From a virus, in IMG/VR virus record IMGVR_UViG_3300025652_006157, positions 1-58,046 of that record: a stretch of 58,046 nt of DNA. The stretch is one strand, 5' to 3'. Position 1 is the first letter of the stretch; each line of letters starts with the position of its first letter. The position numbers were made by a program, and so were the translations under genes. Positions 3,848 through 28,503 of this stretch are shown in pieces. Below the pieces are notes generated by a model that saw only the letters and a list, made by a program, of their open reading frames with translations, made no database searches and had not been told where the DNA came from.

Positions 3848-4464
3848 AGTTACATAAGATTGAGAAATCGGAGACGGTTTCAAAACGCAAGGCAACGGCG
3901 TTACACTTCCCACAGGTTTAGGGTGTTTTAGGTCAGACCTTGTCTATGTCTCTTTACGAAGAGAGAGCAAGAAAGATAAAAACTTAATTTCTGGTAAAAC
4001 CCTTCCCAGAAGCCGACAATTATATGGCTTGGCATGAGAACTAGACGTGAGTTTAGGGAAAGGATAGAAGCAACAACTATCCGCCGCCGCAAGGTGGTCA
4101 ACCCAAGCAAGCCCAACCCGCTTCCGCAAGGAAGTCTTCAGCAACCTCGGAAGCTGGAGAATATTAGAACGTAAAGATAAGAAAAACATACTGGGTAACT
4201 CCGAAGTATGAAACTGCTGTGAGAGGCAAGTACTTATACTCAAACTTTATCACTAAAAATGGGGAAAGGTAGGAACATTAGTCCAAGTCTAATAAACAAG
4301 GGCAGGCTCTAGTTTGATAGGAAATGGGTGGCGTGTGAAAGCGTTCAAACATTATCTTGAAAGACAGCTAAGTAACGTAATTGCGTGAAAGGCAATAGCT
4401 GAGTGTATTATACCGTAGTTCAAAAGATTACGGCATTACTGGTTGCGCACTTAGTAGTTGAAAT

Positions 4465-4530
4465 ATAAACTTTGTTTTGGTAAACAATAGACTCGTAATC
4501 TATCATACGGTTCAAATCCGTTGTATAAAT
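4465..4530 (+). other. tRNA-like domain embedded in the giant RNA
   Basis: D-like hairpin GTTT-TGGT-AAAC (4474-4485), perfect anticodon stem ATAGA/TCTAT around CTCGTAA (anticodon CGT, Thr, 4494-4496) and a T arm TACGG-TTCAAAT-CCGTT. The flanks do not pair as an acceptor stem and the D loop is very short, so it is probably a structural tRNA mimic or a decayed tRNA rather than a functional tRNA-Thr. Confidence 0.6.
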
Positions 4531-4924
4531 GCAAAGACGTAACCGCTACATATCGTAAATGGTCAAATTCTGGAAACGAAAGTTAATCCAGATCTTAGAC
4601 ACTCGCAAGGTGAATAAGTTTTATACTGAACGCAACGACCTGTCCTTTAGCGGGGATAGCCGAAACAGAAGGTGTAGAGTAGATATGTAGGACAGAGCCA
4701 GCTGCCCAGCTCTTTAATCAAAGGCGACCATGAGCATCAACTTCCGAGAGGAAGTGGACAAGCGACTAACAAATAAGGTTAGCGAATGGGTGTTTAGTTA
4801 AAGGTGTAATCTCAACCTTAACACAATATAAGTAAGTAGTTTAGAAGTCTCTTAATATAAATACTGTCTGCCAAGATGCGTTTGTTTTAAGCCGTGCTAG
4901 ACTACTTTCTTATATTAAAATAGT

Positions 4925-6613: not shown

Positions 6614-7195
6614 ATGAATATTTTTGTGCTTGATAAATCTCCCCAAAAAGCGGCTGAACAGCACTGTGACAAGCACGTAATAAAAATGATTCTAGAGTCT
6701 TGTCAGATACTAAGTACAGTACATCGTTTTTTAGATGGTAAAGAGTACACTGAGCTATCAGCAAGCAAACGCCGCTTAAAACGTTGGAGACTTGCAGATG
6801 ATAGAGAAGAGTTATTATACAAAGCTACGCATGTAAATCACCCCTGCACTGTGTGGGCTAGGGAAAACTCTGCTAACTATGCTTGGCTAGTAGAGTTAAC
6901 TAAATGTTTATCCGCTGAGTACACATACAGGTATGGTAAAGTACATAAGTGTAAGCAAATAGGCTTAATTGATAAACTACAAAGCCTGCCTACTAGTATT
7001 AAAGTCGTGAGTTATTCTGAGCCTAAAACATGGGCACAAGCACTGCCAGAAGAGTATAAAAACTTAAAAGATCCTGTAGGTGCGTACAGAAATATGTATG
7101 TGTTTGAGAAAGAGGATCTACTATACTGGAAAGTTAGAAAACCTCCAGAGTGGGTTGGAAAAGCGTTAATTAAAAGAAATGAAAAACATCAGTAA
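6614..7195 (+). CDS. Conserved phage protein of unknown function
   Basis: 193 aa with a well-formed ribosome site (GAGGAAAAGAT). The N-terminus MNIFVLDKSPQKAAEQHCDK, then HVIKMILESCQIL, THVNHPCTVWARENSANYAW and EYTYRYGKVHKC are the kind of His/Cys/Trp-rich blocks I associate with a protein widespread in large marine phages and never assigned a function with confidence. The clustered CDKH and NHPC could bind metal. Single-gene unit with its own promoter. Confidence 0.8.
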   Translation: MNIFVLDKSPQKAAEQHCDKHVIKMILESCQILSTVHRFLDGKEYTELSASKRRLKRWRLADDREELLYKATHVNHPCTVWARENSANYAWLVELTKCLSAEYTYRYGKVHKCKQIGLIDKLQSLPTSIKVVSYSEPKTWAQALPEEYKNLKDPVGAYRNMYVFEKEDLLYWKVRKPPEWVGKALIKRNEKHQ

Positions 7196-7203
7196 ATATT
7201 GAT

Positions 7204-7232
7204 TTGAATTCTTCTGTCAAAACAAGTATAAT
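7204..7232 (+). promoter_or_regulatory. Sigma70-type promoter
   Basis: TTGAAT at 7204-7209, 17 bp, TATAAT at 7227-7232, followed by the conserved leader AGTTACTTAAGATTGA and a ribosome site. Confidence 0.85.
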
Positions 7233-7264
7233 AGTTACTTAAGATTGATAAAAAGGAAAAGACA

Positions 7265-7477
7265 ATGATAGACTTCAATAGCTGGATAGCTCAGTATAAT
7301 GATACGGTTTCTGGGGGCATGCTGCGTATAGGTCAAGTATTATTTAATGCTTTATATGTAGTAAGACCTGATTTAGCAGAGGAAATAAGAGCTACAATCT
7401 TAGACCCTTTCTTTGCAGATAGCTGGGAAGATGAAAGAATTAAAAACTTCTTAGTATTTGTAGAGAATAACTGGTAA
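7265..7477 (+). CDS. Hypothetical 70-aa protein
   Basis: Begins MIDFNSWIAQYNDTVSGGM behind AAAAGGAAAAG. It appears helical, with conserved-looking aromatic residues (W, F, Y) and an acidic C-terminus ending VENNW. A monocistronic early-type unit between two promoter cassettes. No function recognised. Confidence 0.7.
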   Translation: MIDFNSWIAQYNDTVSGGMLRIGQVLFNALYVVRPDLAEEIRATILDPFFADSWEDERIKNFLVFVENNW

Positions 7478-7482
7478 TTTAC

Positions 7483-7511
7483 TTGATTTAAGTTGCTAAA
7501 CAAAGTATAAT
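7483..7511 (+). promoter_or_regulatory. Sigma70-type promoter
   Basis: TTGATT at 7483-7488, 17 bp, TATAAT at 7506-7511. The promoter and leader are almost identical to the copy at 7722. Confidence 0.87.
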
Positions 7512-7543
7512 AGTTACTTAAGATTGAGAAAAAGGAAAGAAGC

Positions 7544-7714
7544 ATGTCAAAACCTAAAAATCATATGGAAGAAAAGATAGCTGCGGCAGTGCGGGAGTTA
7601 AAAGCTGCATTAGATAAGATCCCAGAAGCAGACATGGTAAAGTTTTTAAGGGCTTTAGATAACTCAAGGCTAGCAAACCCTAACGAACCTGCCTTTCCTT
7701 TTAAGAAAGAATAA
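7544..7714 (+). CDS. Hypothetical 56-aa protein
   Basis: ATG at 7544 behind AAAGGAAAG. Sequence starts MSKPKNHMEEKIAAAVREL and is helical; the C-terminus is NEPAFPFKKE. Lies between two near-identical promoter cassettes. No family recognised. Confidence 0.65.
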   Translation: MSKPKNHMEEKIAAAVRELKAALDKIPEADMVKFLRALDNSRLANPNEPAFPFKKE

Positions 7715-7721
7715 AATTGAT

Positions 7722-7750
7722 TTGATTTAAGTTACTAAACAAAGTATAAT
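7722..7750 (+). promoter_or_regulatory. Sigma70-type promoter of the main tRNA cluster
   Basis: TTGATT at 7722-7727, 17 bp, TATAAT at 7745-7750; the first tRNA begins 31 bp downstream. Confidence 0.87.
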
Positions 7751-7780
7751 AGTTACTTAAGATTGAGAAAAAGAATATAT

Positions 7781-8718: not shown

Positions 8719-8741
8719 CTCGCCCTTTGCCAAATATTTAT

Positions 8742-8770
8742 TTGATTTACTCTACTCATTATAGTATAAT
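8742..8770 (+). promoter_or_regulatory. Sigma70-type promoter inside the tRNA-Cys insertion
   Basis: TTGATT at 8742-8747, 17 bp, TATAAT at 8765-8770, then TTAGGAGAAAAG as ribosome site. Confidence 0.85.
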
Positions 8771-8795
8771 AGTTACTTAATTAGGAGAAAAGCAA

Positions 8796-8906
8796 ATGAA
8801 GAAAGAAAAACGTAAAAAAGTAAAGCTTAAGAAGATACCTAAGAATGCTACACCTATGTTTCCGCAGGATAGCGATAGTTATATAACTTGGTCAACTTGG
8901 AGTTAA
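8796..8906 (+). CDS. Hypothetical 36-aa very basic peptide
   Basis: ATG at 8796, 7 nt after AGGAG. The first 15 residues are almost all Lys/Arg (MKKEKRKKVKLKKIPK), the rest ends in YITWSTWS. Promoter and ribosome site are strong, so it is probably expressed; a nucleic-acid- or ribosome-binding peptide is conceivable. Confidence 0.6.
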   Translation: MKKEKRKKVKLKKIPKNATPMFPQDSDSYITWSTWS

Positions 8907-10629: not shown

Positions 10630-11036
10630 AATTGTTGTATGAAGCAGACAACAGACCTCTTGGACGGCGGTTCGACTCCGCCCTACTCCACCATATAACT
10701 TTTTACTATTAGTTATGCTTATACGGGTAATCTAATACCTTAGGAATAAAGAGTACCACCTCTAGCAGAAGCGTATTCTTCTCAAAATCTATTCGGCGTT
10801 AAAACCCGATGTACTGTTTTTAGGGGGCAGTGTCGCGGATCGTATCCGTGAAAGATATTACTGTAAAAAGTTATATGATGGGGTAGCTTGGTTTCGACAG
10901 GAGGGGGAAGGCAAGTGGACAACACGAGCGGAAATACTCGTAAAACAGAATGAACTAACTTAAACGCAAATGACAACATTTACGCTCTAGCAGCTTAGGC
11001 TCTAGATGTGGTGGGTACTACCATATAAACTAAGTG
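10630..11036 (+). ncRNA. ssrA: Circularly permuted (two-piece) tmRNA
   Basis: tmRNA rescues stalled ribosomes and adds a degradation tag. Here the 3' acceptor piece comes first: T arm GGCGG-TTCGACT-CCGCC (10666-10682) and acceptor CTACTCC-A-CCA (10683-10693). After an intervening segment of 186 nt, the 5' piece starts GGGGTAGCTTGGTTTCGACAG at 10880. GGGGTAG pairs with CTACTCC, and helix 2 forms between CAGGAGG (10898-10904) and CCTCTTG (10656-10662). The tag ANDNIYALAA is at 10966-10998. The intervening segment is closed by a perfect 14-bp extension of the acceptor helix (10693-10706 with 10863-10876). Outer ends are approximate. Confidence 0.92.
10966..10998 (+). other. tmRNA tag reading frame (ANDNIYALAA)
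   Basis: GCA resume codon at 10966, ten codons, TAG at 10996-10998. The YALAA end matches the gammaproteobacterial ClpXP degron (E. coli ANDENYALAA), so the tag should be readable by host proteases. Confidence 0.92.
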
Positions 11037-11086
11037 CCAAAATTAAAAATTCAGGAAATTACTGAGAAATTTTAAGGATTTTTCTA

Positions 11087-11115
11087 TTACAAAAATTCTT
11101 ATTTTGCTATATAAT
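11087..11115 (+). promoter_or_regulatory. Probable promoter of pqqA
   Basis: TATAAT at 11110-11115 with TTACAA 17 bp upstream (11087-11092) and a TGC just before TATATAAT (extended -10). It differs in -35 from the repeated early cassette. Confidence 0.6.
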
Positions 11116-11122
11116 ATATATA

Positions 11123-11143
11123 AGTGCTGAAAATTTTAGCACT
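11123..11143 (+). other. Leader hairpin of pqqA transcript
   Basis: AGTGCT (11123-11128) pairs with AGCACT (11138-11143) around an A/T-rich loop, at the expected 5' end of the transcript; may stabilise the mRNA. Confidence 0.6.
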
Positions 11144-11177
11144 GTATCCTAACAAAAATAATTAGAGGAAGTTTTTT

Positions 11178-11249
11178 ATGTGGACAAAACCTGAATACTC
11201 AGATATGCGCTTTGGCTTTGAAGTAACAATGTATATCTGCACACGCTAG
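11178..11249 (+). CDS. pqqA: PqqA, coenzyme PQQ precursor peptide
   Basis: 23 aa, the usual PqqA length, starting MWTKPEYSDMRFG and ending FEVTMYICTR. PqqA supplies the Glu and Tyr that PqqE/PqqD crosslink to make the redox cofactor pyrroloquinoline quinone. Both are present in the required spacing: Glu15 and Tyr19 (EVTMY), with the conserved MW-x-KP start, Asp9, Arg11, Gly13 and C-terminal Arg. A good ribosome site (AGAGGAAG) lies 7 nt upstream. The gene has its own promoter, leader hairpin and strong terminator. No pqqB-E gene is in this window, so any role must rely on host enzymes or genes elsewhere. Confidence 0.93.
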   Translation: MWTKPEYSDMRFGFEVTMYICTR

Positions 11250-11263
11250 AATTTAAACTAATG

Positions 11264-11299
11264 GCGACTTATCTATGTAATTAGATGGGTCGCTTTTTT
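11264..11299 (+). terminator. Intrinsic terminator after pqqA
   Basis: GCGACTTATCTA pairs with TAGATGGGTCGC (12 pairs, two G-U), loop TGTAAT, then six T. Confidence 0.93.
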
Positions 11300-12280: not shown

Positions 12281-12300
12281 CCTATTAGAAATTTATTTAC

Positions 12301-12329
12301 TTGATTTACCAAGTTAAACAAAGTATAAT
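12301..12329 (+). promoter_or_regulatory. Sigma70-type promoter
   Basis: TTGATT at 12301-12306, 17 bp, TATAAT at 12324-12329; leader identical to those at 7204, 7483 and 7722. Confidence 0.87.
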
Positions 12330-12372
12330 AGTTACTTAAGATTGATAAACAAACCAACAAAGAGGAATAAAA

Positions 12373-28048: not shown

Positions 28049-28503
28049 TGGTAGCTAAAGTAGATTCAAGAGCCAAAGGCGCTAGGATAGAGGCTCAAAT
28101 AAAGAAAGTGCTTAAAGAGAGAACAGGCTTAAACTGGGAAAGGATTCCCTCCTCTGGAGCACTAGATGCCAAACACGGGTTGAAAGGAGATTTGTACGTT
28201 CCTGGAGAAGGTAATCTATTCTGTGTAGAGGTTAAAGGCTATAAAGACGATCATATTAATAGTGGACTACTTACCCATAAAACACCTCAGATAGAGGAGT
28301 GGGTAATACAGGCTAGAAGACAGGGCGTGCAGGTAGATAAGAAATGGCTATTAATATTTAAGTTCGATAGAAGTAAAATATTTGTATGCTTCGAAGATGA
28401 ACCAATAGAAGAGTATAGGTATATATACTATTCACACTTGAACGTATATATGGCGCTTTTAGATGATTGGCTAGAAGACAACCCAAAATTTATAAAGGTA
28501 TAA
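28048..28503 (+). CDS. PD-(D/E)XK nuclease, probable Holliday junction resolvase
   Basis: 151 aa. N-terminal KGARIEAQIKKVLKERTG contains the resolvase-type Glu; ERIPSSGALDAKHGLKGDLY provides the Ser-Gly and metal-binding Asp; FCVEVKGYKD is the ExK motif, together the archaeal Hjc-like active site. Expected to cut four-way junctions left by recombination or replication. Neighbours are SbcCD and the flap nuclease, as in T5. Confidence 0.82.
   Translation: MVAKVDSRAKGARIEAQIKKVLKERTGLNWERIPSSGALDAKHGLKGDLYVPGEGNLFCVEVKGYKDDHINSGLLTHKTPQIEEWVIQARRQGVQVDKKWLLIFKFDRSKIFVCFEDEPIEEYRYIYYSHLNVYMALLDDWLEDNPKFIKV

Follow-up and report, generated by a model that had tools for sequence, protein, structure and literature searches.

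The window, i.e., the whole stretch of DNA analyzed here, is a virus record of 58,046 bases that encodes families for DNA polymerase, a DnaB-like helicase, an SbcC-like protein, ribonucleotide reductase, a major head/protease protein, and tail proteins. These replication, capsid, and tail families identify it as a true phage genome, as is expected of the carrier of an auxiliary metabolic gene (AMG). Its polymerase shares 44-45% identity with its nearest counterparts, which are encoded by Enterobacteriaceae and Vibrio phages of 110-128 kb; we take these phages to be the T5-like group. By polymerase identity, two related viral contigs are G001 (96%; 91.6 kb) and G002 (76%), with DNA identities to the window of ~83-95% and ~64-72%, respectively, over aligned stretches. 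The RNA genes of the window comprise 13 tRNAs, a permuted tmRNA, and a GOLLD RNA. The two-piece tmRNA (10633-10998, plus strand; Rfam RF04321, 112 bits) has the tag ANDNIYALAA, and a two-piece tmRNA was also reported for methylophage Melnitz (PMC9004378). GOLLD RNA of the T5-like group was observed in a tRNA-rich region of the window (4398-4818, 174 bits) and of contig L287 (7708-8134, 171 bits). In addition, a dispersed repeat of ~55-70 bp recurs near the window tRNAs (7191-7268, 7475-7534, 7711-7777, 8736-8799, 12295-12349) and is also present in G001.

The pqqA gene and its flanking elements

Directly past the tmRNA lies pqqA (11178-11249, plus strand), consisting of 23 codons (11178-11246) and a TAG stop (11247-11249), with the product MWTKPEYSDMRFGFEVTMYICTR. 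PqqA is the precursor peptide of PQQ, a redox cofactor of bacteria. An earlier note on this DNA had recognized PqqA from the sequence alone, and the alignment to PqqA profiles that it proposed as a check supports this identity. The peptide scored 44.3 bits against PF08042 (E 1.5e-11, all 19 profile positions covered; curated cut-off 21.1 bits) and 49.3 bits against the NCBIfam equivalog TIGR02107 (cut-off 20 bits), both far over the cut-offs, and PF08042 gave zero matches in 14 control genomes. Of the landmarks named in the note, the 23-codon reading frame has Glu15, Tyr19, and a C-terminal Arg, and Glu15 and Tyr19 have the E-x3-Y spacing for cross-linking by PqqE. The ribosome-binding site it described is likewise found as GAGGA (11165-11169, plus strand) 8 nt ahead of the ATG. 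As the note also stated, no other pqq gene accompanies pqqA in the window; PqqE, PqqB, and PqqD were not found, and the same result for PqqC comes from a search without a positive control.

The note further described pqqA as a self-contained expression cassette with a promoter-like sequence, a leader hairpin, and a 12-pair terminator, which holds only in part. An intrinsic terminator (11263-11299, plus strand) is clearly present, with a stem of 13 rather than 12 pairs (11263-11294; -18.8 kcal/mol, z -7.48) and a subsequent T run. In G001 the stem is retained and base changes on both of its sides keep the pairing, and G002 has a different terminator stem at the same place after pqqA. A sigma-70-like promoter, ATTACA-18-TATAAT (11086-11115, plus strand), matches the consensus at 10 of 12 positions, but four such sites were observed in the 1.1-kb A+T-rich region against a chance expectation of 2.8, and taken alone the site is weak evidence. 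The leader hairpin is also real (11123-11143, plus strand; 9 bp, -9.8 kcal/mol, z -4.76) and would lie at the predicted 5' end of the mRNA. Both upstream elements are, however, absent from G001. In this closest relative pqqA starts ~75 nt past the tmRNA and the extra promoter/hairpin stretch of the window is missing; the promoter is thus not a fixed part of the pqqA unit. The upstream region in G002 resembles that of G001, but this contig stops soon after. Both relatives have pqqA at the position it has in the window, ahead of a shared MNQKK... gene, and the order from tmRNA to pqqA is common to the window and G001. The terminator is therefore the part of the cassette that is fixed in relatives, whereas a private promoter is not. 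In G002 (L289), pqqA (~18608, reverse strand) has ATA for the expected ATG near the contig end, possibly through an error or because the gene uses an unusual start codon.

Distribution and conservation of viral pqqA

The earlier note knew of no described phage PQQ gene. Comparison with sequence records and literature shows phage pqqA to be neither undescribed nor rare: PqqA of a Lake Baikal methylophage was published in 2020 (Coutinho et al., PMC7678222), viral pqqA/D/E were reported in 2026 (PMC13188868), and a degenerate DNA pattern for PqqA with variable gaps matched at least 120 IMG/VR contigs. Phage PqqA as a kind is thus already known. All pattern-matched viral copies examined have exact PqqA spacing, and they encode 45 distinct peptides. 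A second pattern, which overlaps the first scan and leaves positions 15 and 19 free, returned Glu15 and Tyr19 in 124 of 124 viral peptides, with Ile at position 16 in some; nearly all viral peptides retain a C-terminal Arg or Lys. Among the large proteins encoded near viral pqqA are members of the portal, terminase, baseplate, and DNA polymerase families. When two shared open reading frames (ORFs) are required, 8 clusters with several members each and 13 singletons result, while most loci are joined together if one shared ORF suffices; these counts come from related contigs and are non-independent.

In a whole-record search of 49 viral records (the window, four relatives, and 44 pattern matches), exactly one PqqA was encoded in 47; the remaining two were partial relatives. 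PqqE did not exceed its cut-off in any of the 49 records, none encoded a PQQ alcohol/methanol dehydrogenase, PqqB and PqqD were not found in 14 records, and PqqC was not found either, a weaker result as its search had no positive control. A complete viral PQQ operon, with pqqB-E beside pqqA, was accordingly not seen in these records, several of which are fragments, so that the absence applies to their sequenced DNA. A PqqA is also encoded in a viral record of 356,312 bp (L293, IMGVR_UViG_3300023174_000036), possibly a jumbo phage or bacterial. Two matches labeled 'Acinetobacter phage MD-2021a' (CAKLQF020000010.1, L128; CAKLQH020000055.1) were discarded as bacterial; in L128, the one examined, pqqA lies within a pqqABCDE operon adjoining ppk, which looks like misassigned bacterial DNA.

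PqqA is also encoded by six cultured methylophage species, i.e., Melnitz (four strains), Venkman, MEP301, MEP401, MEP402, and P19250A; the OM43 phages MEP431-434 were outside this set. Like the window, these phages carry a short stand-alone PqqA with Glu15 and Tyr19, but they have Methylophilaceae-type peptides and belong to different phage lineages. In none of these six species, nor in the at least 120 IMG/VR contigs, is the gene annotated as pqqA. At its site Melnitz has an antisense hypothetical protein and the other five species have no annotation. PHROGs contains no PqqA family, and a gene of 23 codons has a size that gene callers miss. The unannotated pqqA of P19250A was located at 3001-3069 of L122, corresponding to 28085-28153 of KX815270.1. 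Its product, MWTTPAATEMRFGFEVTMYVMNK, is identical to the commonest Methylophilaceae peptide. This gene contradicts the statement that P19250A lacks all auxiliary genes reported for the Lake Baikal phages, PqqA included (PMC7678222). The literature is to be corrected: pqqA is carried by P19250A as well as by the five OM43 phage species in culture that were checked. A phage pqq gene goes unmentioned in the publications on Venkman, Melnitz, MEP301, and MEP401/402, and in the Melnitz paper PQQ appears solely as a component of the growth medium. Judged on the open-access literature, the breadth of viral pqqA, its presence in cultured methylophages, and the evidence for selection appear to be new, as does a T5-like phage with pqqA and a probable Methylophagaceae host.

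As expected of an AMG, pqqA is under purifying selection in phages, with a dN/dS of ~0.05. Between the window and G001, dN was 0.045 and dS 1.25, and ~50 disjoint viral pairs had a dN/dS of ~0.065. In codons that the search pattern left free, changes in viral pqqA were synonymous in 109 and non-synonymous in 40 cases. Strong terminator hairpins directly 3' of the gene occur in 50 of 117 viral cases, as compared to 14 of 452 after other viral ORFs and 0 of 542 at random positions, counts again drawn from related and hence non-independent contigs. Host pqqA shows the same enrichment (125/151 versus 53/586 in the host control), and the phage gene therefore looks like the stand-alone pqqA units of hosts. 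Hairpins on both flanks could also suggest that a regulatory RNA is the conserved unit, or one might propose another role for the peptide or PQQ, such as antioxidant protection. However, the predominance of synonymous substitutions indicates that the peptide is what is conserved, and G001 does not share the RNA structure upstream of the gene; we regard such explanations as very unlikely.

Relationship to probable methylotrophic hosts

Bacterial genomes with the codon pattern for MRFGFEVTMY are mostly those of Methylophilaceae and Methylophaga, with a few methanotrophs and others. The peptide of the window differs from Methylophaga PqqA at residue 22 only, where Thr replaces Asn; host PqqA has Asn at this position, whereas the phage group of the window has Thr or Ser. 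At the DNA level, up to 61 of 69 nucleotides of pqqA are identical to Methylophaga. A 20-kb piece of the window had matches in all 57 Methylophagaceae genomes with which it was compared. Among the matches listed, some concerned a tRNA-Leu gene and the others pqqA, at up to 94% identity and in many genomes extending over its ribosome site, and none was a clear CRISPR spacer. Judging from pqqA itself and the weak tRNA similarity, Methylophaga or a close relative is the probable host of the phage. The DNA matches support this assignment as well as a host origin of pqqA, but they are not an independent proof of the host.

An AMG should have a homologue and a pathway in its host, and the inferred hosts provide both in the form of Methylophaga and Methylophilaceae pqqA, PqqE, and PQQ dehydrogenases. 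The earlier note had made its proposal dependent on these host functions. PqqE exceeded the cut-off in 25 and PQQ dehydrogenase in 26 of 27 likely-host genomes, with several dehydrogenases per Methylophaga genome, and pqqA is present in 1-9 copies per genome. In several Methylophaga genomes (G069, G116, G128-G130), no more than ~0.7 kb separates a pqqA copy from a PQQ dehydrogenase gene. The stand-alone pqqA genes of Methylophaga and Methylophilaceae resemble the phage gene in a peptide that is within one residue, a similar ribosome site, and an adjoining hairpin terminator, but are chromosomal and often present in several copies.

This similarity also bears on the suggestion of the earlier note that the phage titrates PqqD/PqqE. 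Such a decoy peptide would occupy these proteins, prevent PQQ from being made, and slow the respiration of the host, and without an accompanying pqq gene, host PqqD/PqqE are indeed the sole visible partners of the phage peptide. Yet the catalytic residues are dispensable for a decoy, whereas Glu15 and Tyr19 are invariant, the C-terminal Arg/Lys is nearly always retained, and phage peptides equal host peptides exactly or within one residue. Moreover, phages of methylotrophs rely on host methanol oxidation for energy. As all residues needed for conversion are kept under strong purifying selection, titration is disfavored and we consider it very improbable. Least likely of all is that pqqA is a passenger, a reading against which the evidence for selection already speaks strongly, i.e., a piece of host DNA gained by recombination and awaiting loss: the gene is short and many host-genome copies are available for recombination, but it is retained in the window, G001, and G002 at the low dN/dS given above and is found across many phage clusters.

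A proposed role in PQQ supply

From the observed identity, conservation, and architecture of the gene and the gene complement of likely hosts, we infer, with a probability of roughly three in four, that pqqA is a functional, host-derived AMG by which a T5-like phage, probably of Methylophaga or a close relative, supplies the precursor of PQQ. One PqqA is consumed per PQQ made, while PqqB-E can be used repeatedly. As the one pathway component that is consumed stoichiometrically, the precursor could be carried alone by the phage, and pqqA by itself would be an economical route to raise or keep PQQ synthesis. Briefly, host transcription would fall during infection, and a short phage transcript, which would begin in the tmRNA-pqqA gap or ahead of it and stop at the dedicated terminator, might replace or supplement host pqqA mRNA. 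Host PqqD/PqqE would then cross-link Glu15 to Tyr19 of the phage peptide. The resulting PQQ, whose synthesis would be kept up or raised, could load many host methanol/alcohol dehydrogenases and thereby sustain electron flow and C1 supply. The conservation of viral pqqA is consistent with a raised precursor supply. In a methylotroph that has pqqA in five copies, of which three are stand-alone, expression of pqqA1 and pqqA3 rises with PQQ synthesis (PMC9851590). Against a role in precursor supply stand the several pqqA copies that likely hosts already carry and the absence of methanol dehydrogenase from all 49 viral records.

The Lake Baikal phage VP_266 resembles the window in its PqqA, for which a boost of methanol oxidation in the methylotroph host was proposed (PMC7678222). 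VP_266 also has a methanol dehydrogenase and was assigned to Methylophilaceae, whereas the window is that of a T5-like phage without the dehydrogenase and with signs of a Methylophagaceae host. Given the absence of methanol dehydrogenase from the 49 records, the viral enzyme that accompanies PqqA in Lake Baikal is not a typical feature.

AMGs of the psbA type in cyanophages replace a component of the host that has a high turnover and drives its energy metabolism. Phage pqqA would do likewise, although the psbA product is a subunit of an energy-converting complex and PqqA a precursor peptide that is consumed. On balance, we lean slightly towards the wider proposal that PqqA is a near-universal but overlooked trait of phages of PQQ-dependent methylotrophs (Methylophilaceae, Methylophagaceae), kept functional in unrelated lineages, and a counterpart of psbA for methanol oxidation. 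Methanol accounts for a major flux of oceanic carbon and is handled largely by OM43, Methylopumilus, and Methylophaga. Cultured phage-host pairs exist, such as Venkman/H5P1 and MEP301, and make the role of pqqA testable now. If phages of methylotrophs routinely carry pqqA, infection may sustain or even raise methanol oxidation.
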